Source of the DNA: Micromonospora olivasterospora
Lineage (GTDB): Bacteria > Actinomycetota > Actinomycetes > Mycobacteriales > Micromonosporaceae
NCBI RefSeq assembly: GCF_007830265.1
Contig: NZ_VLKE01000001.1
Location: 2,976,001-3,040,000, forward strand
Direction of reading: 5' to 3'
DNA length: 64,000 nt
Positions 19,369-58,793 of this stretch are shown here, piece by piece. The position numbers were made by a program, and so were the translations under genes. Below the pieces are notes generated by a model that was not told where the DNA came from, did no database searches, and was given only the letters and a program-made list of their open reading frames with translations. Position 1 is the stretch's first letter; each line of letters starts with the position of its first letter.

Positions 19369-20734
19369 TGACCGGCATGGCGGCAGCGGCAAGTTCGATC
19401 GACCGGTCCGGGGCAATGAGCATCACGCGTCGACTCACCGAGATCTGTGGCCCGCCCTTCGCCCGGTTCGCCGGCGCGGCCGACGAGGTCGCCGGCCGGC
19501 CGGCCCGGTGGGTGGCGGTGCCCGGCAACCCGCAGGCCGCGGCCGAGGTGCTGCGGCTGGCCGCCGCCCACGACCTGACGGTGGTGCCCCGCGGCGCCGG
19601 CACGAAGATCGACTGGGGTGCGGCACCGGAGCAGGTCGACATCCTGCTCGACACCGGCCGGCTGGCCGGGATCGGCCACCAGCAGCCGGGCGCCCCGGTG
19701 GCCGACGTCGGCGCGGGCACCCCGCTGCGGGCGGTGCAGGCGACCCTGGAGCGTACCGGGCAGCGGCTGGCCCTCGACGCGCCCTCGCCGGGCGCCACCG
19801 TCGGCGGGGTGCTGGCCGCCGACGAGGCGGGCCCGCTGCGGCACCGCCACGGCGGCCCCTGCGACCAGCTCGTCAGCGTGCGCTACCTGGACGCCGACGG
19901 TGAGCTGGTCAGTGCCGGCGGCGGCCGGCGTGGCCTGGAGCTGGCCCGGCTGCTCTGCGGGTCCCAGGGCACGCTCGGGGTGCTGGTCTCGGCCACGCTG
20001 CGGGTGCAGCCCGTGCCGGCCAGTCGGTTCTGGGTCGTCCGGCCGGTGTGGACGCCGCTGGAGGTCTACGACGTGGTCCGCGCGGTGCTGGCCGCCCGGC
20101 TGGATCCGGCGGCCGTCGAGCTGGACCTGCCCGCCCGGGCCACCCGGGTGCACCCGTCGGTCCACCCCGACCACCCGTCGATGGCGGCCCGCGCCCGCCA
20201 CCCCTCGATGTTCCGGCGCCGGCTGGGCGTGACGGGGGCGGGCAGCCTGGCGGTGCTCCTGGAGGGCGGCCCCGCGGATGTCCACGAGCGGGCCGAACGC
20301 CTGCTCGCGGTGCTCGGCGACGGGGCGAGCGTGGAGCACTCGGCCCCGCCGTGGTGGCGGCGCTACCCCTTCGGCCCCGGCGAGACCGCGCTGCGCATCG
20401 AGGTGCCGATCACCGACCTGCACGCGGCGGTATACGCGCTGCGGGACGCGGCCGGCGGCCCGGTGCCGGTCCGGGGCTCCGCCGGCCAGGGAGTGGTGCA
20501 CGCGGCCCTGCCCAATTCCCTGCCGCCCGAGCGGGTGGCGTCCATCGTCACCGCGGTGCGCGGGGTGCTGCTCGCCCGGCACGGCCGGTGCGTGGTGGTC
20601 GCGGCGCCCGCCCCGGTGCGGCAGGCGGTCGACCTCTGGGGCGAGCTGACGAGTCTGCCCCGGCTCCGGGCGGCGAAGGCCCACCTCGACCCCCACCAGC
20701 GCCTGGCCCCGGCCGCCTCCCCGGCGGCCTGTGA
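19368..20734 (+). CDS. GlcE-like FAD-binding oxidoreductase (apparent frameshift near 3' end)
   Basis: An FAD-binding (PCMH/VAO-fold) protein of about 440-456 residues resembling glycolate oxidase subunit GlcE. It has TVVPRGAGTKIDWG, VADVGAGTPLRAVQATLE, SPGATVGGVLAADEAGPLRHR and CGSQGTLGVLVSATLRVQ. The frame as given runs on past the normal end into simple repeats up to 20945. Adding one C to the CCCC run at 20707-20710 yields a normal C-terminus, DPHQRLAPGRLPGGL, and a stop at 20732-20734, so I end it there. Starts at 19368, 19377 and 19416 are possible; the last lies clear of the SOS box. No glcD or glcF is adjacent. Confidence 0.75.
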
Positions 20735-20760
20735 CGCGCCCCCGGCGCTGGTGCTGGCCG

Positions 20761-20796
20761 CCCCCCGCACCCCCGCACCCCCCGCACCCCCGCACG
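20761..20796. repeat. C/A-rich 17-bp direct repeat
   Basis: CCCCCCGCACCCCCGCA is repeated twice head to tail just downstream of the GlcE-like gene. It is simple-sequence DNA with no coding meaning. It lies between the gene end and a dispersed palindrome. Confidence 0.6.
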
Positions 20797-20800
20797 CCGC

Positions 20801-20867
20801 GATCTTGCACTTTCGGCCCTTGATTCGCGTTATTAGCCCGAATTGCCGGGGCCAAAACTGCAAGTCA
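20801..20867. repeat. Dispersed palindromic repeat (type GATCTTGCACTTT)
   Basis: GATCTTGCACTTTCGGCCC (20801-20819) is followed after a 29-base spacer by GGGGCCAAAACTGCAAGTC (20849-20867). The arms pair with only a few mismatches. Extragenic palindromes beginning GATCTTGCACTTT are, to my recollection, common in Micromonospora genomes; here it sits between a gene end and the IS110 left flank. It may act as a terminator. Confidence 0.6.
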
Positions 20868-20973
20868 CCCGGTCTTTTCGGGACGCCTCGCAGGCGTGAA
20901 AATGGTGGACAGGTCGCCCGCCGACGCCGATCGATCTTGGTCTAGTTGAGGCCGTCTGCAAGTCTGGCGCCGC

Positions 20974-22239
20974 GTGTGTGCGGTCGATGTGGCCAAGGAG
21001 TCGGGGATGGTGTGTACCCGGCTACCCGCCGCGGGTGGGCGGCGGGTGAGCCGGGTGTGGCAGGTGACGGCGACCACGAACGCGGTCAGTGACCTTGCCG
21101 CCGATCTGGTGGCGGCGGGGGTGGAGAAGGTCACCGTGGAAAGCACGTCGGACTACTGGCGGATCTGGTTCTACCTGTTCGAGGCAGCCGGGTTGGACGT
21201 GCAGTTGGTCAACGCCCGTGACGTCAAGAACGTGCCCGGGCGGCCGAAGACCGACAAGCTGGACGCGGTGTGGTTGGCCAAGCTCACCGAGAAGGGCCTG
21301 TTGCGGCCCTCGTTCGTGCCTGCGGCTCCGGTGCGGGTGTTGCGTGACTACACCCGGATGCGGGTGGATCTGGTCCGGGACCGGACCCGCTACTGGTCGA
21401 GGTTGGAGAAACTGCTTGAAGACGCCCTGATCAAGGTGTCGTCGGTGGCCTCCACCCTGCGGACGGTGTCGACGCGGGACATGGTTGAGGCGTTGATCGC
21501 CGGTCAACGTGATCCGGCGACCCTCGCCTCGCTGGCCCACGGAGCGCTGCGCCGCAAACGCAACGCCCTCATCGAGGCACTCACCGGCCGCTTCGACGAC
21601 CATCACGGCGAGTTGGCCCGGATCCTGCTCGACCAGATCGACCGCCTCGACACCGAGATCGCGAAACTCACCACACGGATCGGGCAGATACTCGACGACA
21701 TCGACCCACCGTCCCAGCCGGGCGGCGGCGACGGCGACACCCCGGCGCCAGACGCCCGGCGGCGCCTGGCCGAGATCCCGGGCATCAGCACCGAGTCCGC
21801 GCAACTGATCATCGCCGAGATCGGTCTGGACATGACACGGTTCCCCACCGCGGCGCACCTGGTGTCCTGGGCGAAGCTGTGTCCGCGCACCATCCAGTCC
21901 GGTACCAGCCTCACCGCGGGCAAGACAGGCAAAGGCAATCCGTACCTCAAAGGCGCCCTCGGTATGGCCGCAGCCACCGTCGCCCGCGGCAAGGGAACGT
22001 TCCTGTCCGAACGCTACCGGCGTCTGGTCACACGTCGAGGCAGAGGCAAGGCCAAGGTCGCCGTCGCCCGCTCCATCCTCGTGATCATCTGGCACCTGCT
22101 CAACGACCCAACCGCCCGTTACCACGATCTCGGCGCCGACTTCCACGAACGCCGTATCAACACCACCCGGAAGATCAACAGCCTGGTCCGGCAACTCGAA
22201 GCCCTCGGCCACACCGTCACCCTGCAACCGACAACCTGA
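20974..22239 (+). mobile_element. IS110-family transposase
   Basis: A full-length 421-residue IS110-type transposase that recombines DNA with a RuvC-like DEDD domain and a C-terminal Tnp_20 domain holding a catalytic Ser. The DEDD residues are seen in AVDVAKESG, VTVESTSDYW and DKLDAVWLAKL. The Tnp_20 part reads EIPGISTESAQLIIAEIG, then WAKLCPRTIQSGTSL and GNPYLKGALGMAA. The GTG at 20974 is the only start after an in-frame stop at 20947. IS110 elements lack long terminal repeats and make no target duplication, so exact ends cannot be set. Flanking non-coding DNA would hold the guide (bridge/seek) RNA. Confidence 0.9.
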
Positions 22240-22260
22240 CCCCACACCCCCACCCCGCCC

Positions 22261-22288
22261 GGGCTGGCCATCAACACCGGGCCAGCCC
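22261..22288. terminator. Stem-loop after IS110 transposase
   Basis: GGGCTGGCC (22261-22269) and GGCCAGCCC (22280-22288) form a perfect 9-bp stem with a 10-base loop, 21 bases after the transposase stop. There is no U-tract. It may be a terminator or a structural element of the IS right end. Confidence 0.6.
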
Positions 22289-22408
22289 ACCGCGCCCAAA
22301 ACCCGTCGTGGTACAGGTCATTTACCGGTCAGATCGCGGGAGCTGGGTGGGGGTGGGGGCGGGGCGGGGCGCGGGGGCGGGGAGGGGGCGGGAGGGGGTC
22401 AGAGGGGG

Positions 22409-24499: not shown

Positions 24500-24526
24500 C
24501 CCTCGTATCCTCCACCGCCGCCCCAC

Positions 24527-24589: not shown

Positions 24590-24732
24590 GAGCTGGATCG
24601 ATCCGACGGGCGTGGCGGGCCTGCGGCGGCGCGACATCGACAGTCACGCGGGCACAATGGTGGGATGGCCAGTGCGTCGGCATGCGCCCGGCATGCCCGG
24701 ATGCGCCGGCGGCCCCCGAAACTGAGCGAGGA

Positions 24733-27700
24733 ATGATGACCACGGCGAAAAACTCCGCAGCCGCGGACCCCTCCGCGCCGGATCAGGCCGCCATGCTCAG
24801 CGAGCTGGCGGAGGCGTTGCGCCGGGTGCGCACCGGCGACCTGAAGGTGCGCCTGCCCCGCCGCGCGGGCGTGGCCGGCGAGGTGGCGGACGCGTTCAAC
24901 GACGTGGTGGCGCTCCAGGAGCGGCAGCACCTCGACCTGCGCCGGATCAGCCGGATCGTCGGCCGGGACGGCCGGCTCACCGAGCGCCTCGACGAGGAGG
25001 GGCTGGAGGGTTCCTGGGCCGAGGGCCAGCGGGCCGTCAACTCGCTGATCGACGACCTGGGCCGCCCGACGACGGAGATCGCCCGGGTGATCGTGGCGGT
25101 GGCCGACGGGGACCTCTCCCAGCAGATGGCGCTGGAGATCGACGGTCGGCCGCTGCGCGGCGAGTACCTGCGGATCGGCCGCACGGTCAACACCATGGTC
25201 GACCAGCTCTCGTCCTTCTCCAACGAGGTGACCCGCGTCGCCCGGGAGGTGGGCACCGAGGGCGAGCTGGGCGGCCAGGCCGACGTCCGCGGCGTGGCCG
25301 GCACCTGGAAGGACCTCACCGACTCGGTGAACACCATGGCGTCGAACCTGACGTACCAGGTGCGGTCGATCTCACAGGTGGCCACGGCGGTGGCCCGGGG
25401 CGACCTGTCGCAGAAGATCACGGTGTCGGCGAAGGGCGAGGTCGCCGACCTGGCGCACACCATCAACTCGCTCACCGACACGCTGCGCCTGTTCGCCGAG
25501 CAGGTGACCCGGGTGGCCCGGGAGGTGGGCACCGAGGGGAAGCTCGGCGGCCAGGCTGAGGTGCCGAACGTCGCGGGCACCTGGAAGGACCTGACCGACA
25601 GCGTCAACTCGATGGCGTCGAACCTGACCGCGCAGGTGCGCAACATCGCCCAGGTCTCGACCGCCGTCGCGCGGGGTGACCTGTCGCAGAAGATCACCGT
25701 CGCCGCGCAGGGCGAGATACTGGAACTCAAGGACACCGTGAACACGATGGTGGATCAGCTGTCGTCGTTCGCGGACGAGGTGACCCGGGTGGCCCGCGAG
25801 GTGGGCATCGAGGGCAAGCTGGGCGGCCAGGCCCAGGTGCGCGGCGTCTCGGGCACCTGGCGCGATCTCACCGAGAACGTCAACCAGCTCGCCGGCAACC
25901 TGACCAGCCAGGTCCGCAACATCTCCCAGGTGTCCACGGCGGTGGCGAAGGGTGACCTGTCGCAGAAGATCACCGTGGATGCCCAGGGCGAGATCCTGGA
26001 GCTGAAGAACACCGTGAACACGATGGTGGATCAGCTGTCGTCGTTCGCGGACGAGGTGACCCGGGTGGCCCGCGAGGTGGGCACGGAGGGCAACCTGGGC
26101 GGTCAGGCGCAGGTCAAGGGCGTTTCGGGTACGTGGCGGGACCTGACGGACAACGTGAACTCGATGGCGTCGAACCTGACGTCGCAGGTGCGCAACATCG
26201 CCTCCGTCACCACGGCGGTGGCGAAGGGTGACCTGTCGCAGAAGATCACGGTCGACGCCCGGGGCGAGATCCTGGAGCTGAAGTCGACGGTGAACACGAT
26301 GGTGGATCAGCTGTCGTCGTTCGCGGACGAGGTGACCCGGGTGGCCCGCGAGGTGGGCACCGAGGGCAAGCTGGGCGGGCAGGCCCAGGTGCGCGGCGTC
26401 GCCGGGACCTGGCGCGACCTGACCGACAACGTGAACTCGATGGCGTCGAACCTCACGGCGCAGGTGCGCAACATCGCCCAGGTGTCCACGGCGGTGGCGA
26501 AGGGTGACCTGTCGCAGAAGATCACGGTCGACGCGCAGGGCGAGATCCTGGAGCTGAAGTCGACGGTGAACACGATGGTGGATCAGCTGTCGTCGTTCGC
26601 GGACGAGGTGACCCGGGTGGCCCGCGAGGTGGGCACCGAGGGCAAGCTGGGCGGTCAGGCGCAGGTCAAGGGCGTTTCGGGTACGTGGCGGGACCTGACG
26701 GACAACGTGAACTCGATGGCGTCGAACCTGACGTCGCAGGTGCGCAACATCGCCTCCGTCACCACCGCCGTGGCGAACGGCGACCTGTCGCAGAAGATCA
26801 CCGTGGACGCGCAGGGCGAGATCCTGGAGCTGAAGAACACCGTCAACACGATGGTGGATCAGCTGTCGTCGTTCGCGGACGAGGTGACCCGGGTGGCCCG
26901 CGAGGTGGGCACCGAGGGCAAGCTGGGCGGTCAGGCGCAGGTCAAGGGCGTCTCGGGCACCTGGCGGGACCTGACGGAGAACGTCAACCAGCTCGCCTCG
27001 ACGCTCACCACCCAGCTGCGGGCCATCGCCCAGGTGTCGACCTCGGTGACCCGGGGCGACCTGACCCAGCGGATCGCCGTCGAGGCGCAGGGCGAGGTCG
27101 CCGAGCTGAAGGACAACATCAACCAGATGATCGTCACCCTCCGGGAGACGACGAAGAAGAACGCCGAGCAGGGCTGGCTCGACTCGAACCTGGCCCGGAT
27201 CGGCGGCCTGCTCCAGGGCCAGCGCGACCTCGGCGAGGTCTGCCGGATGATCATGTTGGAGGTGACCCCGCTGGTGGACGCGCAGCTCGGCGCGTTCTTC
27301 CTGGCGGACGCCTCCGACGGCAGCATGCGGCTGCGGCTCACGGCCTCGTACGGGTACGTCGCGCGCGGCCACGACGTCACGTTCGGGCCGGGCGAGGGGC
27401 TGGTCGGGCAGGCCGCGCTCTCTCGCCGGACGATCCGGGTGAGCGCCGCCCCGGACGGCCGGCTCACGCTGCGTTCCGGGCTGGCCGACACCCCGCCGGC
27501 CGACCTGGTGGTGCTGCCCGTGCTGTTCGAGGGCGAGCTGCTCGGGGTGATCGAGTTCGCGAACGTGGCCGCGTTCTCCGACCTGCACCTGGCGTTCCTG
27601 GAGCGGCTGGTGCTCACCATCGGCGTGGCGGTCAACACCATCCAGGCCAACCGGCGTACGGAGGAACTGCTGGCCCAGTCCCAGCGGCTGGCGCACGAGC

Positions 27701-29103
27701 TCCAGGAGCAGTCGGCCGAGCTGCAGCGCACCAACGCCGAACTGGAGGACAAGGCCAAGCTCCTGTCGGAGCAGAAGGGCAACATCGAGACGAAGAACCG
27801 GGAGATCGAGCTGGCCCGGCTCGGCCTGGAGGAGAAGGCGCGGCAGCTCACCCGGGCCTCGGCGTACAAGTCGGAGTTCCTGGCCAACATGAGCCACGAG
27901 CTGCGTACGCCGCTGAACTCCCTGCTGCTGCTGTCCCGGCTGCTGGTGGAGAACTCGGAGCGCAACCTCACCCCGAAGCAGATCGAGTTCGCCCGGACGA
28001 TCCACAGCGCCGGGTCGGACCTGCTCTCGCTGATCGACGACATCCTCGACCTGTCCAAGATCGAGGCGGGCCGGATGGACGTGGAGCCGACCGAGGTCCG
28101 GTTCGACGAGATTCGCGCGTACGTCGAGCAGGCCTTCGCCCGGCTGGCCGAGGAGAAGGGTCTCGACTTCCACGTACGGGTCGCCGACGATCTGCCTCCG
28201 GCGCTGGTCACCGACGCCCAGCGGCTGCAGCAGATCCTGCGCAACCTGCTCTCCAACGCGGTCAAGTTCACCGACGACGGGGCGGTGACGCTGAAGATCG
28301 CGCCCGCGCCGGAGAACGCCGTGTTCGACGTGCCGGCCCTGACCAACGCCCGGCAGGTGATCGCCTTCACGGTGATCGACACCGGCATCGGGATCTCCGA
28401 CGACAAACTGTCCCTGATCTTCGAGGCGTTCCAGCAGGCGGACGGCACGACCAGCCGCCGCTACGGCGGCACGGGGCTGGGCCTGTCGATCAGCCGGGAC
28501 CTGGCCCGCCTGCTCGGCGGCGCGATCGCCGTGGCGTCGGCGCCCGGCGCGGGGTCGACGTTCACGCTGTACGTGCCGGACGTGCTGGCGCCGGACGCGG
28601 TGGTCGCCCCGGCGCCGCCGTCGCCGGCCCGGGCGGGCCTGCCGTCGTCGCTGCTGATGCCGCCGCCCGAGCTGCCGGAGCCGGCCGAGACGCCGGCCAC
28701 CCGCCGCCTGGAGGGCGTCACCGTGCTGATCGTCGACGACGACGTGCGGAACGTCTTCGCGCTGACGAGTGCATTGGAACTGCACGGGATGACCGTGCTG
28801 TACTCGGACAACGGGGCGGACGGCGTCCGCCTGCTGGCCGAGCATCCGGAGGTGGACATCGTGCTGATGGATGCGATGATGCCCGACCAGGACGGATACG
28901 AGACCACCCGGCAGATCCGACGTAACCATCGGTTCGCCGACCTCCCGGTCGTCTTCCTGACCGCGAAGGCGATGCCGGGCGACCGCGAGTCCGCACTCGC
29001 GGCGGGGGGCAGCGACTACATCACCAAACCGGTCGACCTGGACGAGCTGATCGAGTTGATGGCGTCCTGGGTGAGCGACGGCCGAGGCGAGGAGAATCTG
29101 TGA
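24733..29103 (+). CDS. Hybrid histidine kinase with seven tandem HAMP units (OsaA/group III-like)
   Basis: A 1456-residue soluble hybrid kinase with no membrane segment. Two diverged HAMP-like units (about 10-150) are followed by seven near-identical 92-residue HAMP repeats (about 153-796), each carrying [24 protein letters not shown] and GDLSQKITV. Then come a GAF domain (about 815-985), a coiled coil, HisKA with the phospho-His in [16 protein letters not shown] (about 1055), HATPase_c ([27 protein letters not shown]) and a receiver with Asp in [16 protein letters not shown] (about 1378). This is the architecture of fungal group III osmosensing kinases and of Streptomyces OsaA; function as an osmotic or envelope-stress sensor is inference. 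The ATG at 24733 or 24736 follows GAGCGAGGA. The stop overlaps the response regulator start. Confidence 0.9.
25189..27120. repeat. Seven in-frame 276-bp tandem repeats inside the kinase gene
   Basis: The unit from one AACACGATGGTG-type block to the next recurs seven times at exactly 276-bp spacing. Copies four to seven share long identical DNA stretches, for example around 26028-26080, 26304-26360, 26580-26630 and 26856-26910. The repeats encode HAMP signal-relay units. Near-identity at the DNA level, beyond protein need, indicates recent duplication or gene conversion; unequal crossing over could change copy number in steps of 92 codons without breaking the frame. Confidence 0.92.
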
Positions 29104-29654: not shown

Positions 29655-29657
29655 CCT

Positions 29658-30369: not shown

Positions 30370-30389
30370 ACAAGCGTAGCTTCCGAAGT

Positions 30390-37216: not shown

Positions 37217-38883
37217 TGACGACCGTGGCGGACCGGCCCACCACGCCGGCCCCCGAGGCGCCCCGCCGCCGGCCCAACCCGGTGCTGACCCTGCTGCGCA
37301 ACTCGTGGCGGCAGCTCACCAGCATGCGTACGGCGCTGATCCTGCTCTTCCTGCTCGCCGTCGCGGCCATCCCCGGCTCGGTGCTGCCGCAGCGCGGCGT
37401 CAACCCGGAGAAGGTCAACGAGTACTTCGTCGACCACCCCGACCTGGCCCCCCGGCTGGACCGGATCGGCGCGTTCGAGGTCTTCGGGTCGGTCTGGTTC
37501 TCCGCGATCTACCTGCTGCTGTTCACGTCCCTGATCGGCTGCATCGTGCCCCGGCTGCGCGACCACGTCCGCGCGTTGCGCGCGCAGCCGCCGGCCGCGC
37601 CGAGGCGCCTGGACCGGCTGCCCCAGCACGCCACGCTCGCCGTGGCCACCGACGCCGAGGCCATCGCCGCCGAGCTGCGCCGGCGCCGCTGGCGGGTCGT
37701 GGTACGCGGCACGGAGGTCTCCGCCGAGAAGGGGTACCTCAAGGAGACCGGCAATCTGCTCTTCCACGTCTCGCTGGTCGCGGTGCTGCTCGGGGTCGCG
37801 CTCGGCTCCTGGTACGGCTGGCACGGCAACCGCCTGCTGGTGGCCGGCGCGGAGAACGAGTTCTGCAACACCCGGCAGCAGTACGCCGAGGCCAAGCTCG
37901 GCCCCCGCGTCGACAGCGCCGACCTGCCCCCGTTCTGCCTGACGCTGGACCACTTCGACGCGCGGTTCCTGGAGTCCGGGCAGCCGGACTACTATCGGGC
38001 CACCGTCGACGTGACGGACAAGGACGGCAAGCCCATCCGGGCGGCGGCGTCGTTCTCGGTCAACGACCCGTTGCGCCTCGGCGACGCCAACGTCTACCTG
38101 CTCGGCCACGGGTACGCGCCGATCCTGCGCTACACCGACCGGTACGGCAACTCCCAGACCAGCGCGATCCCGTTCCTGACCACCGGGGACGCCACCCTCA
38201 CCAGCGAGGGCGTGGCACCGTTCCCGGACGTCAACGTCGACCCGAAGACCGGCCAGCGCGATCCGAACCTCCAGGTCGCCTTCGAGGGGCTGTACCTGCC
38301 CACCGCGCCGCAGCAGGGGCCGTTCAACCGGTCGGAGTTCCCGACCGAGCGCAACCCGGCGGTGGTGCTGGTCGCGTACCGGGGGAACCTGGGCATGGAC
38401 GCCGGCATCCCCGGCTCGGTGTACAAGCTCGACCAGCGCCAGGTCACCAACGGCAAGCTCAAGCAGGTCGGCAACAAGAAGCTGGCCGTCGGCGAGAAGT
38501 GGACGCTGGACGACGGCAGCGTGCTGGAGTTCCTCGGCACCAAGCCGTACGTCACCCTGTCGGTGCGGTACGACCCCGGCTCCACGCTGCTGCTGGCCAG
38601 CTCGGCGGTGTTGCTGATCGGCCTGATGGGCGCCCTGTTCGGCAGGCGCCGCCGGGTCTGGTTCCGGGTGACGCCCGCCCCGGCGGGCGACGCCGGCGAC
38701 CCCGCCGGCGGATCTCCGACGAGCGGTAGTAGCTTGGTGGAGGCCGGTGGCCTGCCGCGCACCGACTATCCCGGGTTCGCCGACGAGTTCGCGCAGCTCG
38801 TCGCCGCCGTGCGCGGCGACGGGGAGCCGGCCGGGCGGCCCGACGCCGGGCGCCCCGCCGGGACGCGAGAAGGAGCCGAGTGA
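37216..38883 (+). CDS. resB: Cytochrome c biogenesis protein ResB (Ccs1)
   Basis: A 555-residue membrane protein forming, with CcsB, the system II heme handling and ligation complex. Three N-terminal hydrophobic segments (LILLFLLAVAAIPGSVLPQR, FSAIYLLLFTSLIGCIVPR, LLFHVSLVAVLLGVALG) precede a large extracytoplasmic domain. A fourth segment (LLLASSAVLLIGLMGALFG) comes near the C-terminus, followed by a polar tail. GSVLPQRGVNP and GCIVPRLRDH are family hallmarks. It overlaps ccdA at TGATG and ccsB at its 3' end. Confidence 0.92.
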   Translation: MTTVADRPTTPAPEAPRRRPNPVLTLLRNSWRQLTSMRTALILLFLLAVAAIPGSVLPQRGVNPEKVNEYFVDHPDLAPRLDRIGAFEVFGSVWFSAIYLLLFTSLIGCIVPRLRDHVRALRAQPPAAPRRLDRLPQHATLAVATDAEAIAAELRRRRWRVVVRGTEVSAEKGYLKETGNLLFHVSLVAVLLGVALGSWYGWHGNRLLVAGAENEFCNTRQQYAEAKLGPRVDSADLPPFCLTLDHFDARFLESGQPDYYRATVDVTDKDGKPIRAAASFSVNDPLRLGDANVYLLGHGYAPILRYTDRYGNSQTSAIPFLTTGDATLTSEGVAPFPDVNVDPKTGQRDPNLQVAFEGLYLPTAPQQGPFNRSEFPTERNPAVVLVAYRGNLGMDAGIPGSVYKLDQRQVTNGKLKQVGNKKLAVGEKWTLDDGSVLEFLGTKPYVTLSVRYDPGSTLLLASSAVLLIGLMGALFGRRRRVWFRVTPAPAGDAGDPAGGSPTSGSSLVEAGGLPRTDYPGFADEFAQLVAAVRGDGEPAGRPDAGRPAGTREGAE

Positions 38884-39871
38884 TGTCCGCACTCTCCGAC
38901 CACCTGGTCACGTTCGCGACCCTGGCGTACCTGGTCGCGATGATCTGCCACGCCGTCGAGTACGCCCTGGGTGACGCCCGGGCCCGCCTCGCCGCCCCGG
39001 CCGCCGCGCCCGCGCGCGAGCTGGTCGGCGCCGGGGTCGGCGGCTCCGGCGGCGTCGTCAAGGCCCCGCCGAGCCGGTCGCGCCCGCTGCCCCGGCCGAC
39101 CGCCCGGCGCGGCGGGCCCGGCTGGCCGGCCTCCTCGGAGTCGGGGTCACCGCGCTCGCCGCGGCGCTGCACCTGGCGGCCACGGCCACCCGCGGGATGG
39201 CCGCCGGCCGGATGCCGTGGGGCAACATGTACGAGTACGTGCTCACGGTCTCGTTCATCGGGGTCGCCGCGTGGCTCGTCGTGCTCTGGAAGCGCCCCTC
39301 GCTGCGCCGGCTGGGGCTTTTCCTCACCCTCGTCATGGTGCTGCTGTTGGCGTTCGCCGAGCTGAAGCTCTACGTCGAGGTGGTGCCGCTGATGCCGGCG
39401 CTGCAGTCGTACTGGTTCGTCGTCCACGTCTCGACGATCATCTTCGCCTCCGGCGTCTTCCTGCTGGGCGTGGTGCCGGCCGTCGCGTTCCTCATGCGCA
39501 ACGGGTACGAGCAGGGCAGGCGCAGCTTCCCGTACACCCTGGCCCGGCGGCTGCCGGCGGCGGCCGGCCTGGAGCGGCTGACCTTCGCGCTGCACGCCTT
39601 CTCGTTCCCGCTGTTCACCTTCGCGGTGATCGCCGGGGCCATCTGGGCGGAGGCCGCGTGGGGCCGGCCGTGGGGCTGGGACCCGAAGGAGACCTGGGCG
39701 TTCATTTCGTGGGTGGTGTACGCCGGCTACCTGCACGCCCGGGCCACCCCGAGCGTGCGGCGCAACGTCGCCACCTGGATCGCGGTGCTCGGATTCCTCA
39801 CCATGCTGATGAACCTGTTCGGCGTGAACTTCTTCTTCACCGGCCTGCACTCGTACGCCGGGGTCAACTGA
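38883..39871 (+). pseudogene. ccsB: Cytochrome c biogenesis protein CcsB, interrupted by a one-base frameshift
   Basis: CcsB presents heme to apocytochrome c. The N-terminal part in the first frame (MSALSDHLVTFATLAYLVAM, AVEYALGDARARLAAPA) is normal. The rest, including MPWGNMYEYVLT and the heme-binding WDPKETWAFISWVVYAGYLH, is in another frame. Adding one C to CCCC at 39064-39067 restores a continuous protein through KAPAEPVAPAAPADRPARRA. Since ResB and the other partners are intact and system II is needed for the cytochrome bcc branch, a base missing from the assembly is more likely than true loss. An ATG at 39197 would give only the C-terminal 224 residues. Confidence 0.82.
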
Positions 39872-39931: not shown

Positions 39932-40207
39932 ATGCGGACCGTGAACTTCACCCAGCTACGTCAGAACCTGGCCGCCGAGCTCGACAGCGTCATCAACGAC
40001 GCGGAGGAAGTCGTGGTGACCCGGTCGGGCCACGAGCCGGTCGTCATCGTCCCCCTCGCCGAGTACGAGGCGATGAAGGAGACCGAGTATCTCCTCCGTA
40101 ACCCGAGCAACGCCGCGGCGCTGCGCCGGTCGATCGCGGAACTCGGGCGAGGCGACGCCGAGGAGCGGGAACTCATGGACCCGGCCTCGGTTCGTGATGT
40201 CGCGTGA
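39932..40207 (+). CDS. YefM/Phd-family antitoxin
   Basis: A 91-residue antitoxin that represses its own promoter and neutralises a YoeB-type RNase. The Phd/YefM N-terminal DNA-binding fold is clear: MRTVNFTQLRQNLAAELDSV, VVVTRSGHEPVVIVPLAEYE and ETEYLLRNPSNAAALRRSI, the last being the toxin-binding segment. The ATG at 39932 follows GGAGG; a GTG six bases earlier is in frame. The stop overlaps the toxin start by 4 bases. Confidence 0.9.
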   Translation: MRTVNFTQLRQNLAAELDSVINDAEEVVVTRSGHEPVVIVPLAEYEAMKETEYLLRNPSNAAALRRSIAELGRGDAEERELMDPASVRDVA

Positions 40208-40569
40208 GGCTGGTCTTCACGCCGACGGCATGGAGCCAGTACCTCAGTCACACCGACCGTAAGTTGGTCAAACGGATCAACGATCTCATTGCCGACGTCA
40301 TGCGTAACGGCTACGAGGGCATCGGCAAGCCGGAACCGCTTCGCGGGGAGTTGTCGGGCTTCTGGTCCAGGCGGATCGATCGCGAGCACCGGCTGGTGTA
40401 CCGGATAAACAACGCCGGGGTGCCGACGTCTGGCGCCGGTCCCGGCGCCGGTACGACAGCGCCGTGCTCGGGCCCACGTTCGAGGAGATCGTCCGCCAGT
40501 GGGCTCTTCAATTCGCCGATCCCGAACTCCTCGGCGGGATCGTGGCGGAGGCGAGCGCGGCGACGCTGA
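40204..40569 (+). CDS. YoeB-like toxin with replaced C-terminus (probably inactive)
   Basis: The first about 73 residues match YoeB: MRLVFTPTAWSQYLSHTDRK, LVKRINDLIADV, EGIGKPEPLRGELSGFWSRR and IDREHRLVYRI. YoeB normally ends after about 84 residues with QCRYHY, whose His-Tyr pair is catalytic. Here that end is absent and the frame continues into 45 unrelated Gly/Ala/Ser/Arg residues read from a degraded ATPase gene. The conserved Glu and Arg remain but the essential C-terminal residues are missing, so the RNase is predicted dead. The junction is near base 40420. Confidence 0.8.
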   Translation: MRLVFTPTAWSQYLSHTDRKLVKRINDLIADVMRNGYEGIGKPEPLRGELSGFWSRRIDREHRLVYRINNAGVPTSGAGPGAGTTAPCSGPRSRRSSASGLFNSPIPNSSAGSWRRRARRR

Positions 40570-40874
40570 CCGACCCGTCCAGTCGTACCAGCCACGAGCT
40601 GGACCTGGTCGCGCTCGGTGAGCCGCCCTTCGGTGACGGGGCACGCCCGGTGCTCGCGATCGGCGAGGTCAAGTGGGGGCGGACGCTGGGCCGGCCCGAC
40701 CTGGAGCGCCTGGCGCGGGTGCGCGACCTGCTGGCGGGGCGGGCGGGAGTCGACGCGTCGGACGCCCGCCTGCTGCTGGCCAGCGCGACCGGCTTCACCG
40801 AGGAGTTGGCGCGGACGGCCGACGGCCGGCGGGACGTGGTGCTGGTGGACGCCGCCCGCCTGTACGCGGACTGA
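40420..40874 (+). pseudogene. 3' remnant of a DUF234/archaeal-type AAA ATPase gene
   Basis: From about 40422, in a frame different from the toxin, the sequence reads DVWRRSRRRYDSAVLGPTFE, EIVRQWALQF and then HELDLVALGE, VLAIGEVKWGRTLGRPDLER and LLLASATGFTEELA. This is the C-terminal DUF234 part (nuclease-like, with an IGEVKW core) of large P-loop ATPases. The ATPase domain itself is missing. A GTG at 40464 would allow a 136-residue peptide. A deletion appears to have joined the end of this gene to the middle of the toxin gene. Confidence 0.7.
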
Positions 40875-48406: not shown

Positions 48407-48425
48407 TTCCAGGTGTCGTCCGGGA

Positions 48426-50461: not shown

Positions 50462-52009
50462 TCAGCTGTCGAGCAGGCCGCCCATCAGGCCGTTCATCGC
50501 GTCCCCCGCCAGCAGCACGACGAGCAGCCCGATCGCGACCAGGACGGCCAGCGACGCCACGAGGACGATCACCACCTTCCTGGTGCTGGACCGGGGCGTG
50601 GGGGAGTCCGACCAGCCCTGCGCCAGGATGTGCCCCGTCAGCGAGCCGGAGGTCTCCAGCGACCCGCCGGGCGGGAGGGCGACCGTGGCGAACCCGGGGC
50701 CGTCCGTGCCGTAGGCGGCGCTGGCCAGGTCCACGGTCCCCGGGTCCGGGCGGCCTCCGGAACCCCAGGCGGGCGCGCGGCTCCCCGGCGCCCCGCCGCT
50801 CGGGCTGGTGGGCGTCGTCGACCAGGCGACGGTGGGCGAGGCGCCGTACGTCGTTGGCGTGGGGGTGGCGGGGGCCGCGTCGGGCGCGGGGTCGTGCGGG
50901 GTGGGCGGGCTGGTGGGCGTCGACCAGGCGACGGTGGGCGAGGCGCCGTACGTCGTTGGCGTGGGGTGGCGGGGCCGCGTCGGGCGCGGGGTCGTGCCGG
51001 GTCGCCGGGCTGGTGGGCGGCGGCCAGGACGGCAGCGCGGGCGCCGGAACGACCGGCGGCGGGGCGGCCGGCGCCTGCGCCGACGCGGTCATCGGCGGCG
51101 GCGGGAACGGCGGCGCCGGCCTCGGCGCGGGCGGCGGTGGAGCCGGCGGCACCGGCGGCGCGGGCGGCGGGCTGGGCGGACCGGGAACCGGCGGCGGGCT
51201 GGGCGGACCGGGAACCGGCGGCGGGCTCGGCGGCACCGGGCCGGGGCCGGGCGGCGGGAGCGGCCCGGGCCGGGCGGCTGCGGGCCGGGTGCCGGCGGCG
51301 TGGGCTGGGGCCGCGGCGGGGCCGGCGCAGGCGGTACGGGACCCGGTACGGGCGGCGTCGGTGGCACGGGCGGAACGGGACCGGGCACGGGCGGCGTGGG
51401 CGACGGCGGGTGCGGTCCCGGTACGGGCGGGAGGGGCGCCGGGGCGGGCTCCGGTTCCGGGGTGGGCGGCACGGGCGGCTCGGCGGGCTCCGGTGGCCGG
51501 GCCGGCTCCGGCGGTTCCGGGTTCACCGGGGCGGACCGGTACACCTTGGCACCGCCGGTCACCGGTCCGGCGGCCGCGTCCGCCCCGGGTGTGGCGACGC
51601 GCAGGCCCGGCACGGAGGCGCTGGCCCGGGCCGCACCGGCCGCCCCGGTTCGTTGGCCCGGCACGACGGAGGCCGGCGGTGCGCTCGCCGGGCTGGCGGG
51701 GCCCGCGGGTGCCGCCGGACCGCCGGCAGCGGCGGCTCCGCCGCCCAGGGTCGCGCCCGGCGCGCCCGCACGGTACGTCGTGCCGGTTCCGCCCCTGGCC
51801 GGCAGCGCCGCCCCCGCCGGGGGCGCGGTGACGGTGGCGACGCTGGCCCGGGCCCGGGCGGCGGTCGCACGCCCGGCCGGCTCGGCCCGGCCGTCGTCGG
51901 ACGCGTCCGCGCTCAGCGGGCCGTCAGCGAGCGGGGCTTCGGCCGGGTCGGCCGTACGGTCGGCGGGGCCGGAGTCGGCCGTCCGCGCCGGAACGTCTTG
52001 CTCGCCCAT
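50462..52009 (-). CDS. Pro/Ala-rich single-pass membrane protein (frameshifted as given)
   Basis: The ATG at 52009 follows GGAGGGCGACC. It opens a low-complexity protein (MGEQDVPARTADSGPADRTA, later PVNPEPPEPARPPEPAEPP). Near 51265 and again near 50963-50974 the natural Pro-rich frame moves to another phase, ending with LASAAYGTDGPGFATVALPP, GGSLETSG and a C-terminal membrane helix VVIVLVASLAVLVAIGLLVV. The second break lies in copy two of a 105-bp duplication; copy one has GGGGG where copy two has GGGG at two places. With those bases restored the frame is continuous. No domain is recognised; the long Pro-rich cytoplasmic region and one helix suggest an anchor or scaffold. Confidence 0.6.
50808..51012. 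repeat. About 105-bp tandem duplication in the Pro-rich gene
   Basis: The segment starting GTGGGCGTCGTCGACCAGGC at 50808 is repeated from 50913. It encodes TTYGASPTVAWST and DPAPDAAP on the minus strand. Copy two lacks one G in each of two G5 runs (50963-50966, 50971-50974) and three bases elsewhere, which breaks the reading frame in that copy only. Confidence 0.75.
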
Positions 52010-52138: not shown

Positions 52139-53672
52139 TCAGGCGTCCGGCGATCCGCTGGCGCTCGCCGCCGGGCTGCTCGCCTTCGCCGACTTCGACG
52201 GGTCACCGGACGACGACGCGGCCGGCGAACCCGCCGACGAAGTGGACGGCTGGCCGCTCGGGGCCCCCGTGGTGGTCGTCGGCTCGGGGGTCGCCGAGCC
52301 CGTGGGCGTGGGAGTGGGCGTCGGGGTCGTCGGCTTCGGCGTGACGCTGGGCGTCGGGGTCGGGGTCGTCGGCTTCGGCGTGACGCTGGGGGTGGGGTCG
52401 GCTTCGGCGTCGGCGGCTTGGTCGTCGGCGTGGGGCGGGCGTGGGCGGGGCGGGCACGGCCCCGACGACCCGGGTGGCGGCGTACATCCGGGACCAGGCG
52501 ACCTGGGAGATCTTCACGCGCTGGCCGGTGGTGGGGGCCTGCACCATCTTGCCGCCGCCGAGGTACATGCCCATGTGATAGATCGTCGTCCAGCTGCTGC
52601 CCGAGGCGAAGAAGATCAGGTCGCCGGGGAGCATGGCGTCGCGGCTCACGGCGCGGGCGCGGGTGGCGTAGTACTGGTCGCGGGAGACCCGGGGCAGCCC
52701 GTAGTAGCCCGCCGACCGGTACGCCGCGTACACCAGGCCGGAGCAGTCGAACGTGTCGGGGCCCTCGGCGGCCCACTCGTACCAGTCGCCGAGCTGGGCC
52801 AGGGCGTAGCGGACCGCGCCCAGCGCGGTGGGGTGCGCGACGAGGCCGTTGGCGCTCTGCCCCTGGACGTACGACGCGCCGAGCCGCTGCTCGACCGCCT
52901 CCTGCTGGCGCTCCAGCTCGATCAGCTGCTCGGCGTTGTCCTTGCGCAGCTTGAGCAGCTTCGTCTCCTGCTCGTGGAGCGACTTCTCCACGGCGGTGTA
53001 CTGCTCACGGACGGTGCGCATCCGCGGGTCGGCGGCTGTCCACGCCTGGTACGCGATCTGCTCGGCGGCGCGGGCCCGGCTCAGCTCGCCGGCGGCGGCG
53101 GTGGTCGCCCCGTCGGTCTGCTCGCCCCGGCTGAGCTGCCGGAGCAGGGAGAGGTCGCGCAGGTCCCGGGCGAACTCGCCGGGCGGCAGCGCGGCGGCGG
53201 CCTTCAGCGCGGCGGCCGCGGCGCGGTCGGCGCCCTCCTGCGCGCGGGCCAGGTTGTCGCGGGCGGTCTTCAGGTCACGGTCGGCGGTGGCGAACTGGGC
53301 CTCCGCGTCGGCGCGTTGCTGGCGCAGCCCGAGCAGTTGGTCGCCGAGGAGGCCGACCTGGGTCTCGGCGGCGGCGATGGCCGCGGCGAGCGGGCCGTTG
53401 CCGAGCGGCGCCACGGGGGAGGTCGGACCCGGCGTGCCGGTCAGTCCACCTGGGCCGGTCGCGCCGGGCAGCCGCAGGCCGCCGGCTGCCACGGGGCGGG
53501 AGCCGGTGTCGGGAACGACGTTGGGCAGCGGCGGTTCGGCGTACGCGGGGGCCGCGATCGCCGCCGCGGCGACCGCGCTGAGCAGCGCGGACCAGAGCGC
53601 CGGCCGGAGCACCGGGGAGATCAGTGGACGCCACCGTCGTTGCCGTTGTCGTCCCTGCCCGCTCTGCGCCAT
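52139..53672 (-). CDS. Secreted NlpC/P60 cell-wall hydrolase (frameshifted tail)
   Basis: A peptidoglycan endopeptidase. A signal peptide (WSALLSAVAAAAIAAPAYA) is followed by a long coiled coil (about 95-285), as in RipA-type hydrolases. The NlpC/P60 domain (about 295-410) has catalytic Cys in DTFDCSGLVYAAYRSAG and His in TIYHMGMYLGGGKMVQAP. As given, the frame ends at 52203 with a His/Asp/Arg-rich tail. Adding one base at each GGGG run at 52432-52435 and 52394-52397 gives a natural Thr/Pro tail (TPTPSVTPKPTTPTPTP) ending SASGSPDA at a stop at 52139-52141. GGGGAGCGG precedes the ATG. It likely cuts stem peptides during division or growth. Confidence 0.82.
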
Positions 53673-53905: not shown

Positions 53906-55075
53906 ATGGACGCCGGACTCAAGCGCGAGCTCGAAGCGAAGGTGCACGCGGGGGAGCGGCTGACCCGCGAGGACGGGATCGCCCTCTACTCGAGCGACGA
54001 CCTGACCTGGCTGGGCCGGCTGGCCCACCACCGGCGCACCGAGCTGAACGGCGACCGGGTCATGTTCAACGTCAACCGGCACCTGAACCTGACCAACGTC
54101 TGCTCCGCGTCGTGCGCGTACTGCTCCTTCCAGCGGAAGCCGGGCGAGAAGGACGCCTACACGATGCGCATCGACGAGGCGGTCCGCAAGGCCAAGGAGA
54201 TGGAGGACGAGCAGCTCACCGAGCTGCACATCGTGAACGGCCTGCACCCGACGCTGCCCTGGCGCTACTACCCGAAGGTGCTGCGCGAGCTGAAGGCGGC
54301 GCTGCCGAACGTCAGGCTCAAGGCGTTCACCGCGACCGAGGTGCAGTGGTTCGAGAAGATCAGCGGCCTGCCGGCCGACGCGATCCTCGACGAGCTGATG
54401 GACGCCGGCCTGGAGTCGCTGACGGGCGGCGGCGCGGAGATCTTCGACTGGGAGGTTCGCCAGCACATCGTCGACCACGCCTGCCACTGGGAGGACTGGT
54501 CGCGCATCCACCGGCTGGCGCACTCCAAGGGCATGAAGACGCCGTCCACCATGCTCTACGGCCACATCGAGGAGCCCCGGCACCGGGTCGACCACGTGCT
54601 GCGGCTGCGCGAGCTGCAGGACGAGACGGGCGGTTTCGTGGTCTTCATCCCCCTGCGCTACCAGCACGACTTCGTCGACTCGGCGGACGGCAAGATCCGT
54701 AACCGGATCCAGGCCCGCACGACGATGGCCTCGCCGGCCGAGTCGCTGAAGACGTTCGCGGTCTCCCGGCTGCTGTTCGACAACGTCCCGCACGTGAAGT
54801 GCTTCTGGGTGATGCACGGCCTGTCGGTGGCCCAGCTCTCGCTGAACTTCGGCGTGGACGACCTGGACGGCTCGGTCGTGGAATACAAGATCACCCACGA
54901 CGCCGACTCGTACGGCACCCCGAGCACCATGCACCGGGACGACCTGCTGCACCTGATCTGGGACGCCGGCTTCCGGCCGGTGGAGCGCAACACCCGCTAC
55001 GAGGTCGTCCGGGAGTACGACGCCGCCCCGTCGCTCGCCGAGCGGCGCGCCGAGCCGCAGCAGGTCTGGGCCTGA
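53906..55075 (+). CDS. mqnE: Aminofutalosine synthase MqnE (radical SAM)
   Basis: A 389-residue radical SAM enzyme that joins 3-[(1-carboxyvinyl)oxy]benzoate to SAM-derived adenosyl to make aminofutalosine, an early step of futalosine-route menaquinone synthesis. The Fe-S motif is NVCSASCAYCSFQRKPGEKD (CxxxCxxC). Further hallmarks are LHIVNGLHPTLPWRYY, ESLTGGGAEIFDWEVR and HLIWDAGFRPVERNTRYEV. The ATG at 53906 follows GGAAGGG; an in-frame GTG at 53885 is less likely. Menaquinone genes at 40938-45045 complete later steps. Confidence 0.93.
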   Translation: MDAGLKRELEAKVHAGERLTREDGIALYSSDDLTWLGRLAHHRRTELNGDRVMFNVNRHLNLTNVCSASCAYCSFQRKPGEKDAYTMRIDEAVRKAKEMEDEQLTELHIVNGLHPTLPWRYYPKVLRELKAALPNVRLKAFTATEVQWFEKISGLPADAILDELMDAGLESLTGGGAEIFDWEVRQHIVDHACHWEDWSRIHRLAHSKGMKTPSTMLYGHIEEPRHRVDHVLRLRELQDETGGFVVFIPLRYQHDFVDSADGKIRNRIQARTTMASPAESLKTFAVSRLLFDNVPHVKCFWVMHGLSVAQLSLNFGVDDLDGSVVEYKITHDADSYGTPSTMHRDDLLHLIWDAGFRPVERNTRYEVVREYDAAPSLAERRAEPQQVWA

Positions 55076-55089
55076 GCCGGTCCGACGAG

Positions 55090-55449
55090 ATGAGCGGCAC
55101 GGGTCAGCGCAGCCAGGGCGGGTTCCCCCGGCGGGACGCCGAGGGGCGGGTCGTCGCGTACGGCGACCTGCTCGGCATCGGTCTCGCGGGCGTGGTGATC
55201 GGGCTGCTGGCCCTGCTGGTGTTCGACTGGGGCTTCGCCACGGTCGGCGCGGGTGAGTTCGGCTTTGCCCGGGTGGCGGCGGCCCTGACGGCGGGCGTGG
55301 TCGCCGTGCTCGGCGGGATGCTGCTGATCGGCCAGGTCGCCGGACTGCCGCCGCTGCTCTCCGGCGGGCTGGCCGCCGCGGCGTTCACCCTGCTGTACGC
55401 GACGGTCTGGTTTCATGGCGTGCGTTGGCTCGGCCGCCGGACGGGCTGA
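55090..55449 (+). CDS. Small membrane protein of unknown function
   Basis: A 119-residue protein with three hydrophobic helices: DLLGIGLAGVVIGLLALLVF, AAALTAGVVAVLGGMLLIG and LAAAAFTLLYATVWF. A polar Gln/Arg-rich N-terminus faces the cytoplasm. It starts 14 bases after mqnE and is followed by a second small membrane protein gene. I do not recognise the family. Confidence 0.65.
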   Translation: MSGTGQRSQGGFPRRDAEGRVVAYGDLLGIGLAGVVIGLLALLVFDWGFATVGAGEFGFARVAAALTAGVVAVLGGMLLIGQVAGLPPLLSGGLAAAAFTLLYATVWFHGVRWLGRRTG

Positions 55450-55590
55450 ACGACGATGCCGGCCCCGGGCGCGAACCGGGCCGATCGATGATGCCGGCCC
55501 CGGGGCGCGCCCCGGGTTGACCAACGCCGGCCTGGGCACGCCCGGGCCGAACATCCGCCCGGGCGTCGCGGCGGGGAACGGAGAGGGAAC

Positions 55591-55872
55591 GTGAGCGCGG
55601 CGGTCAAGTACACGCTGGGCCGGATCGGGCTGTTCGTGGTGATCATCGCGGCGCTCTGGCCCGTCGAGATGAACATCTTCCTGAAGCTGATGCTGGCGCT
55701 GGTCTTCTCCGCCGCGCTCTCGTTCTTCCTGCTCCGCGGCTGGCGGGACGAGATGGCCGAGGAGATGGCCGGGGCGGCCGAGCGGCGCCGCGCCGAGAAG
55801 GAGCGGTTGCGCTCCGCGCTGGCCGGCGAGGACGAGCAGCCCAACCAGCGGCAGAGCGACGACGAGCGGTGA
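55591..55872 (+). CDS. DUF4229 membrane protein
   Basis: A 93-residue protein with two membrane helices (LGRIGLFVVIIAALWPVEM, LMLALVFSAALSFFLLRG) and a charged C-terminal helix (MAEEMAGAAERRRAEKERLR). This matches the small actinobacterial DUF4229 family, often next to menaquinone genes. Function unknown. The 140 bases before it contain repeated GATGCCGGCCCCGGG-type hairpins. Confidence 0.75.
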   Translation: MSAAVKYTLGRIGLFVVIIAALWPVEMNIFLKLMLALVFSAALSFFLLRGWRDEMAEEMAGAAERRRAEKERLRSALAGEDEQPNQRQSDDER

Positions 55873-55906
55873 CCGTGGCGCCGCCGCGGGCGGCGGTGCC
55901 ACGGTC
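55871..55906. terminator. Bidirectional terminator between DUF4229 and C39 peptidase genes
   Basis: GACCGTGGC (55871-55879) pairs with GCCACGGTC (55898-55906), and the inner CCGCCGCGGGCGGCGG extends the stem. It sits between convergent genes. Confidence 0.75.
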
Positions 55907-55920
55907 GATCCCGGACGCGA

Positions 55921-57261
55921 CTACCAGTTGGTGGAGCCGGGGACCTGCGGCCACGGCCGGTTGTCCGGCTTGACCAGGTACGCGATGCCACCCGAGCCGC
56001 CGGCCACGGTGCCGTTGGCCCGGTGGCGCCTGGTGCGCAGCCAGATCTGCTCGAACTGCTCGCGCTTGTAGACGTTGCGCACCTCGGCGTTGGACGACGA
56101 CGCCGGGTCGTTGACGATCACGTCACCGTCGGCGGTGAAGCCGACGACCACGAAGAGGTGGCCGGAGGTGCCGTAGTTCGACCCGTCCAGCTCCTCGGCG
56201 AGGAACGACTGCGACGTGATGACCGGGATGCCGGCCTTGATGAATCGCTCGACCTCGTCCAGCGAGTGCAGGCGGGTCACCCGGGCGTCGATGCCCGGGA
56301 AGGTCGCCGCGTACGCGGTGTTGAAGGGCCAGTTGCCGGCGCCCTCGTACTCGCTGTCCCAGGTCATCCGGGCGGCGTGGGCGACCTGCGGCTCGGTGTA
56401 GCCGGGGGTGATCCAGGACATGTCCTGGGCGGACGGCAGCTTGCCGTAGTACTCCAGCACCATCGTGGTCGACGTCGGGCTGCACCAGACCTGGCCGCCG
56501 CCGCCCCACTCCGGGTAGTTGCCGCGGTGGATCATCTGGGAGCGCGGCGGCACGGGCAGTTCGGTGCCCCACGCGATCCCGCCCTGGCTGGGCGTGACGG
56601 TGAACCGGTCGGGGATGTTGGAGCTCATCGCGCCGAGCATCCAGACCCGGGGCGACGCGGCCTGGCCGGGCTTGCGGTACAGGCTGAGCCGCAGCTGGTA
56701 CGACCGCAGCAGCACCCCGGCCTCGGCGTCGTCGATGGAGAACGTGTCCGTCCAGATGGTCGACCACGGGTCACCCTGACCGTCCAGGGTGGCCCGCTTG
56801 ATGTCCTGGTCGCCGGAGGCCCAGCGGCCCATCACGTACCACGGGGTCTGGTTGCCCGTGTTGTAGGTGCCCTGGAGCTCGACCTGCAGCCACGTGCCGG
56901 CCGGGGTGTCGGCGTTCCAGGACGCGACCAGCTCCGTCGCGTCGAAGCCGATCCGGGTCACCGGCGAGGTCCAGGTGGCGTACTCCCAGGTGCTGGTGGC
57001 GCCGGTGTGCTCGTCGGTGAAGTTGGTCGTGCCGGCGGGCCGGTCGATGGTGATTCCCGTGCGGTGACCGGGGAGGGCCCGGGTGCCCCGGTGCTCGCCG
57101 GAGCGCCAGTCGGGGTACGTGGACCACTCCTGGAAGGTGATCTGCTCGTCGTGCGCGACCACGGGCAGGTTGTTGTCGGCGTGGGCCGGCACGGCCGTGC
57201 CGACGAGGGTGAGCGCGGCGACGCCCGCGAGGGCGACCGCGCGTAGGGCTCTGCTGGCCAT
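55921..57261 (-). CDS. Secreted C39-like cysteine peptidase family protein
   Basis: A 446-residue exported protein. A Sec signal peptide (ALRAVALAGVAALTLVGTAV, cleavage after AHA near 28) is followed by a beta-rich N-terminal region and a C-terminal papain-like C39_2 domain. Catalytic residues: Cys in GGQVWCSPTSTTMVLEYYG (about 260), His in GTSGHLFVVVGF and Asp in VIVNDPASSS. It may process extracellular proteins or peptides; the target is unknown. The gene is divergent from the M14 carboxypeptidase gene, another secreted peptidase, across 216 bases. Confidence 0.85.
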   Translation of the reverse strand: MASRALRAVALAGVAALTLVGTAVPAHADNNLPVVAHDEQITFQEWSTYPDWRSGEHRGTRALPGHRTGITIDRPAGTTNFTDEHTGATSTWEYATWTSPVTRIGFDATELVASWNADTPAGTWLQVELQGTYNTGNQTPWYVMGRWASGDQDIKRATLDGQGDPWSTIWTDTFSIDDAEAGVLLRSYQLRLSLYRKPGQAASPRVWMLGAMSSNIPDRFTVTPSQGGIAWGTELPVPPRSQMIHRGNYPEWGGGGQVWCSPTSTTMVLEYYGKLPSAQDMSWITPGYTEPQVAHAARMTWDSEYEGAGNWPFNTAYAATFPGIDARVTRLHSLDEVERFIKAGIPVITSQSFLAEELDGSNYGTSGHLFVVVGFTADGDVIVNDPASSSNAEVRNVYKREQFEQIWLRTRRHRANGTVAGGSGGIAYLVKPDNRPWPQVPGSTNW

Positions 57262-57477
57262 GTGATCTCCGCGAGGTGAGGCGGGTCAGGGCATCTTTGC
57301 TGGTCACTATCCCGCTTGGCGGGAAGTTTCGCCAGATCCTGGCGGATGGAAAACGATTGCCGGCGGGACGACCGGGCCGGGATGGATTGGAGAGTGAAAG
57401 ATATTGATATGACCATGTGACGGGTGGTGAAGTGTGCAGCACGAAACGGGATCTCCCGTACTCCGAGGAGGTTGTCC
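57262..57477. promoter_or_regulatory. AT-richer divergent promoter region for two secreted peptidases
   Basis: This 216-base spacer contains inverted repeats TCCCGCTTGGCGGGA (about 57310) and CGCCAGATCCTGGCG (about 57330). An AT-rich GATATTGATATGACC block (about 57400) could hold a -10 for the carboxypeptidase gene. Shared control of the two exported peptidases is plausible. Confidence 0.4.
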
Positions 57478-58793
57478 ATGGGCATCCCCGCCCCCGTCCG
57501 CCTGCGCCGCGCGCTGGTGCTCGCCGCCGCCGCCGGCCTGGGCCTCGTCACCGTGGCCGCCGGGCCGGTCTCCGCGCGACCCGCCCCGACCGCGCCGCCG
57601 ACCCGGCCTCCGCCGAGTACCGGGTGCTCGGCCCGCGTACGCTGGCCGACCGCAACGCGGTGGCCCGCACCGGCGCCGCGATCGACTACGTCGAGCACGG
57701 CAAGCTGCACGTCACGGCCACCGCCGCCGAGGCGGCGGCGATCACCCGGCTCGGCTTCCGGCTGGAGAGGGAGTCCGCGCCCGCCCCCGCCGGGGACGTC
57801 GGCATCGCCGGCTTCCCGTCCGCCGACTCCAACTACCACGACTACGCCGAGCTGACCGCCAAGGTGAACCAGGTGGTCACCGACCACCCGGCCATCGCCC
57901 GCAAGTCCAGCCTCGGCCGCTCGTACGAGGGTCGCGACCTGATGGCCGTGAAGATCTCCGACAACGTCGGCACCGACGAGAACGAGCCGGAGATCCTGTT
58001 CAACTCCCAGCAGCACGCCCGCGAGCACCTGACCGTCGAGATGGCGATCTACCTGCTCGACCTCTTCACCGACAACTACGGCACCGACTCCCGGATCACC
58101 AACATCGTCAACACCCGGGAGCTCTGGATCGTCCCCACGGTCAACCCGGACGGCAGCGAGTACGACATCGCCACCGGCTCGTACCGGTCCTGGCGGAAGA
58201 ACCGGCAGCCCAACAGCGGCTCGTCGTACGTCGGCACCGACCTGAACCGCAACTGGGGCTACAACTGGGGCTGCTGCGGCGGCTCGTCCGGCTCCACGTC
58301 GTCGGAGACCTACCGCGGCCCGTCCGCCTTCTCGGCCCCCGAGAGCCAGGCACTGCGGAACTTCGTCAACAGCCGGGTCGTCGGCGGCGTGCAGCAGATC
58401 AAGGCCAACATCGACTTCCACACGTACTCGCAGCTGGTGCTCTGGCCGTTCGGCTACACCACGGCGAACACGCCCACCGGGATGACGCTGGACCAGTACA
58501 ACACCTTCGCCACGCTCGGCCAGCGGATGGCCGCCACCAACGGCTACACGCCCGAGCAGTCCAGCGACCTCTACATCACCGACGGCGACAGCCTCGACTG
58601 GCTGTGGGGGACTCACAAGATCTGGGCGTACACCTTCGAGATGTACCCCGGCTCGGCGTCCGGCGGCGGCTTCTACCCGCCCGACGAGGTGATCCCGCGG
58701 GAGACCTCCCGCAACCGGGAGGCCGTGCTCCTGCTCGCCGAGTACGCCGACTGCCCGTACCGGGTCATCAACAAACAGACCCAGTACTGCTGA
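57478..58793 (+). CDS. Secreted M14 zinc carboxypeptidase (one-base frameshift after signal peptide)
   Basis: A metallocarboxypeptidase of about 438 residues. The ATG at 57478, with GAGGAGG upstream, starts a signal peptide ([19 protein letters not shown]). The mature enzyme is in another frame; adding one C to CCCC at 57584-57587 joins them through [20 protein letters not shown]. Zinc ligands are in [12 protein letters not shown] (HxxE) and [17 protein letters not shown], and the catalytic Glu in [11 protein letters not shown] propeptide of about 75 residues precedes the catalytic domain. It would trim C-terminal residues from extracellular peptides. Confidence 0.85.

Follow-up and report, generated by a model that had tools for sequence, protein, structure and literature searches.

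Genes with changed reading frames

The window, which is the whole stretch of Micromonospora olivasterospora DNA analysed here, is 64,000 nucleotides long and corresponds to bases 2,976,001 to 3,040,000 of a 6,945,737-base contig, the genome being represented by two contigs (7.07 Mb). Five genes in the window change reading frame at least once, and their products are a GlcE-like FAD-binding oxidoreductase, a cytochrome c biogenesis protein (ccsB), a proline-rich membrane protein, an NlpC/P60 peptidase and an M14 zinc carboxypeptidase. The genes and the sites at which their frames change are listed in Table 1.

The original prediction listed seven runs of four C or G, and proposed that each of the five genes becomes continuous when one base is added to these runs. 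All seven are indeed runs of exactly four C or G at the positions it gave, and the frames of all five genes change at them, though for ccsB and the proline-rich gene the change can be placed only to within tens of bases. An eighth site, in the proline-rich gene, was not listed and lies in a C3G3 palindrome; hence the C4/G4 context holds for the seven listed sites but is not a universal rule. There are 523 C or G runs of exactly four in the window (239 C and 284 G), and a run of four is therefore no sign by itself; the frame break is the sign. Loss of a base is the best reading of all eight breaks, of which seven are at runs of four and one is at the palindrome, in agreement with the claim that the errors go in one direction.

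Table 1. Genes with frame changes in the window, the sites concerned and the evidence for each
Feature	Position	Strand	Evidence
GlcE-like FAD-binding oxidoreductase, frame-shifted at end	19416..20945	+	PF01565, E 1.7e-23
C4 run, one base short relative to relatives	20707..20710	+	5/5 syntenic relatives longer; tail comparison
ccsB (cytochrome c biogenesis), N-part in frame 3, C-part in frame 2	38883..39871	+	TIGR03144; relatives' alignments
C4 run at ccsB break	39064..39067	+	relatives' alignments; HMM shift at 39067
Proline-rich membrane protein gene, two frame changes	50462..52009	-	three-frame translation compared with relatives
Duplicate repeat copy, G5...G5, in-window control	50841..50916	+	compared with copy at 50943, 102 bases away
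G4 run (plus-strand spelling), G5 in duplicate	50963..50966	-	repeat copies at 50841 and 50943
G4 run (plus-strand spelling), G5 in duplicate	50971..50974	-	repeat copies at 50841 and 50943
Eighth, previously unlisted one-base loss, at GGCCCGGGC stretch (C3G3 palindrome)	51255..51271 (approximate)	-	frame change; relatives
NlpC/P60 peptidase gene	52142..53609	-	PF00877, E 2.5e-23; extent set by public protein P0243
Second NlpC/P60 break, G4 run (plus-strand spelling)	52394..52397	-	P0243 junction at 52393
First NlpC/P60 break, G4 run (plus-strand spelling)	52432..52435	-	P0243 junction at 52431
M14 zinc carboxypeptidase gene	57478..58793	+	PF00246, E 6.5e-67; two-piece match to P0121
C4 run at M14 frame break	57584..57587	+	differs from 5/5 relatives; P0121 junction at 57588

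Comparison with relatives and public proteins

The product of the GlcE-like gene also matches the GlcE and GlcD models, below their cut-offs. Relative to all five syntenic relatives (80 kb of each compared), one base is missing at 20705-20711. For the tail of the protein, 80 loci were taken, of which 4 were dropped as the match ended before residue 415 and 2 as the contig ended in the tail. The tail is in one frame in all 74 remaining loci, several of which lack the C run, and the window departs from it. In a protein search, the closest match among the best 120 of 557 was at 92 %, but the database is clustered at 90 % and an identical entry could therefore hide in the top cluster. The shifted frame extends to 20945, towards an IS110-family transposase gene (PF01548 and PF02371; 20974-22239, plus strand) that lies directly downstream. 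No alignment crosses this element in five relatives, and M. rubida has approximately 30 bases in its place. The element was ruled out as the cause of the shift because the homologous block in relatives continues past the break, to 20735-20748.

TIGR03144 matches 39197-39871 with 218.8 bits (cut-off 187.6), and the proteins of all five relatives match ccsB in two frames, with the break at about 39061-39095. As the linker is variable, the exact base is not fixed. Among the other genomes of the genus, 60 have a ccsB match. The open frame is at least 332 residues long in 56 of them, versus 298 in the window, and the 4 with a shorter frame have it at a contig end. The frame of the N-part was tested at 42 loci in 38 of these genomes, the other 22 being assessed by open-frame length only. 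It was in frame at 39 loci and cut by a contig edge at 3, which corresponds to 35 of the 38 genomes or, excluding the three that are cut, 35 of 35.

The proline-rich gene is a single open frame in each of the five relatives, whereas in the window its frame changes twice. One change, attributed to the eighth loss, separates the N-part from the proline-rich stretch, parts that share one frame in the relatives. The other, near 50965, would fit either one gain or two losses. Comparison of the repeat copies, which read G5...G5 at 50841 and G4...G4 at 50943, favours two losses, at 50963-50966 and 50971-50974, and bears out the earlier remark that a neighbouring duplicate still has the longer runs. 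On the favoured count, the gene would be missing three bases net.

In the M14 gene, the first 37 codons are in frame 1 and the remainder in frame 3. The frame at 57585-57589 differs from that of all five syntenic relatives, by one base in four of them and by an equivalent five-base difference in the other (G012). A public protein search with the C-part as query recovered P0121 (438 aa), which is 100 % identical over the whole query and corresponds to window positions 57478-57588 followed by 57588-58790 in another frame, with zero mismatches. Similarly, the NlpC/P60 frame as query recovered P0243 (491 aa), which corresponds to three consecutive pieces of that gene (53609-52431, 52431-52393 and 52393-52142), each read in the next frame, with a mismatch only at the start residue. 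Together the two proteins agree with the window at 928 of 929 residues, the exception being that start residue, and differ from it by three frame changes. For both, the contig given is 50,514 bases long, unlike the 6,945,737-base contig of the window, and it probably derives from the same strain or one almost identical to it, judging from the residue identity. On that footing, a longer run in another sequence of what appears to be the same DNA is found at three of the eight sites. Only these three are contradicted directly by public proteins; the other five breaks are read from homology alone or from the repeat within the window.

The junctions in the two public proteins fall at runs that the original prediction had named. 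The comparison with orthologues that had been proposed found the tested relatives intact (GlcE at 74/74 loci, ccsB in 35/35 genomes and the proline-rich gene in 5/5).

Probable consensus error and alternative explanations

As a separate public contig encodes two of the genes in one frame, with residues otherwise identical, the eight sites in short C/G runs at which the five genes change frame are very probably one-base consensus errors of the assembly and not mutations. The physical cause would be homopolymer undercalling left in a long-read consensus, and the five sites that no public protein contradicts presumably share the cause of the other three. The consensus would show four C or G where the true run has about five, and a miscalled run inside a gene would shift the frame, leaving the protein split, truncated or extended. 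Two proline-rich, GC-repeat stretches hold five of the eight sites, and polishing is probably hardest there. The shortened runs are most probably an ordinary artefact and not a biological feature. The original observation is confirmed and slightly extended, and the undercalling that it proposed is supported as its best explanation by the public proteins, the intact relatives, the reading of all the breaks as losses and printed precedent.

That precedent includes the description, in section 10.1 of a 2016 Mar Drugs paper (PMC4849082), of PacBio consensus sequences of actinobacteria as prone to dropping one G or C. The artefact described there resembles the present case in that a homopolymer lacks one G or C and a coding frame shifts, as seen by codon-position GC and homologues. 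In contrast to it, one of the present sites lies in a C3G3 palindrome. According to PMC12007338, false deletions dominate the indel errors of bacterial long-read assembly and are commonest after four to five identical bases; in its test genome A/T runs were more error-prone than G/C runs, whereas C/G runs are affected here. For MinION assemblies, including that of a high-GC Pseudonocardia, PMC6325685 reports that indels remain over-represented at homopolymers.

The alternative that the runs are truly short, through real one-base deletions in the sequenced culture that created true pseudogenes and were perhaps fixed in laboratory passage, takes the called sequence, with its shorter runs, at face value. 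It is also in line with the strict DNA counts described below, in which this genome does not clearly exceed one relative (6 versus 5), as real evolution would give. However, the public proteins place three frame changes in two genes against no residue change in the 928 residues compared, the breaks in the window are best read as losses only, and the five genes hit are unrelated and include ccsB, which is in frame in 35/35 tested genomes. Mutation fits poorly with three run-length changes in approximately 5 kb that leave the protein sequences otherwise unaltered, while consensus error fits this easily, and we regard real deletions as very improbable. A lineage in which C5/G5 runs slip often, so that several unrelated genes are off while the rest is identical to an intact sister, is likewise very improbable. 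Were the runs truly short, they would make a striking example of slippage in DNA of high GC content.

Homopolymeric tracts in which a change of run length alters the frame underlie phase variation in Neisseria, Helicobacter and others, and the known switching tracts are longer than runs of four or five. The genes in the window share with these systems a frame change by run length, several are affected in the same run type, and two encode NlpC/P60 and M14 peptidases, which are plausibly exported. Slippage-prone C/G runs that toggle these genes in mixed populations might thus be envisaged, but the runs here are short (four or five) and are missing from some relatives, all 74 GlcE loci are in frame, several of them without the C run, and GlcE-like proteins and ccsB are housekeeping types. 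Phase variation is accordingly very unlikely where undercalling is very probable, the same ranking that the original prediction gave. Programmed ribosomal frameshifting or transcriptional slippage that restores the proteins is extremely unlikely. Every break is at a run, like slippery sites, but NlpC/P60 and the proline-rich gene would each need two or more such events, and a frame break conserved across the family, as a programmed frameshift gene would have, was not seen among the tested relatives, which encode the same proteins in one frame.

With consensus error as the preferred reading, this assembly needs polishing before pseudogenes are counted or biosynthetic clusters are read from it. 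It would be unsafe to infer a loss of cytochrome c maturation (ccsB) from the unpolished assembly, and the relevance of the breaks is to annotation only.

Frame changes beyond the window and other features

A protein-based frame-break test covered 464 kb of this genome together with the corresponding parts of two relatives, of which 203 kb align three ways. Breaks were found at six loci here and at one in each relative; removal of a shared start-site lookalike (one here and the only one in M. rubida) leaves five versus 0 and 1. All five shift as a loss does, although the one near 280289 (coordinates of the joined 464 kb) could equally be a two-base gain. Within the window this test detected only two of the five genes, ccsB and M14. 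Beyond it, the sites are again short C/G runs, at about 175926 and 319971 (protein test) and at 329829 (strict DNA test) in the joined coordinates. The gene at about 175926 is of unknown type, and we take those at about 319971, at 329829 and near 280289 to be a metal P-type ATPase, a DUF2786-like gene and an ABC-transporter ATPase, respectively. Several other candidates were rejected as frameshifts, namely 12058, which lies inside an intact 607-aa frame, and three sites outside the window (271904, 276933 and 307617 in the joined coordinates) that resemble gene-start differences.

The strict DNA test counted lineage-specific, frame-changing indels in called coding DNA and found 6 here (4 losses and 2 gains) versus 1 and 5 in the two relatives. 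Single-base events anywhere are balanced, with 14 losses and 17 gains here and 8/6 and 16/16 in the relatives, and no loss bias was found among single-base events at large. A depletion of C/G runs of five was sought relative to M. rubida and none was found, both genomes having 176.7 per 100 kb (220.0 in the more GC-rich G006); any undercalling is therefore not gross. The errors would be few, occurring very roughly once in every few tens of kilobases, and would cluster in the two proline-rich stretches (5/8 of the sites in the window).

A codon-composition HMM with frameshift states was meant as a genome-wide counter. In 400 kb sampled across the genome, it gave 60 candidates (38 losses and 22 gains), or 15 per 100 kb. 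In the window the rate was 6.25 per 100 kb (3 losses and 1 gain), and five relatives gave between 1.25 and 6.9. While the frame shift is visible through homologues in all five genes, the HMM finds it only in ccsB and M14. It misses NlpC/P60 and the proline-rich gene, and near GlcE calls only a candidate gain at 20813, approximately 100 bases past the break; it also calls a candidate loss at 40424. As the scattered candidates come from composition only and many are in unusual regions, the HMM counts were not relied on. At one locus (L155, G000:C1:5880001-5900000) it places losses at 7976, 9476, 11030 and 12921, in almost identical sequence each time, where repeat units of a modular protein probably confuse it.

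Three further features of the window were recorded. A block on the minus strand (8945-14396), for which no alignment over 400 columns was found in five relatives, encodes a short-chain dehydrogenase, a thiamine-diphosphate enzyme, a 2-isopropylmalate synthase (NF002991, 770 bits) and a methyltransferase; three of its four frames fail a GC3-based filter, and it is possibly a small acquired biosynthetic cluster. A YoeB-like toxin-antitoxin protein (PF06769, profile positions 1-69 of 80) is encoded at 40204-40569 (plus strand), and its frame continues into a fragment at 40464-40874 (plus strand) that has no Pfam match. This locus gave no alignment over 400 columns in four of five relatives and possibly represents real decay. 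Finally, 24682-29103 (plus strand) encodes a 1473-aa hybrid histidine kinase with seven HAMP stretches in 276-base repeats, and is aligned in all five relatives.
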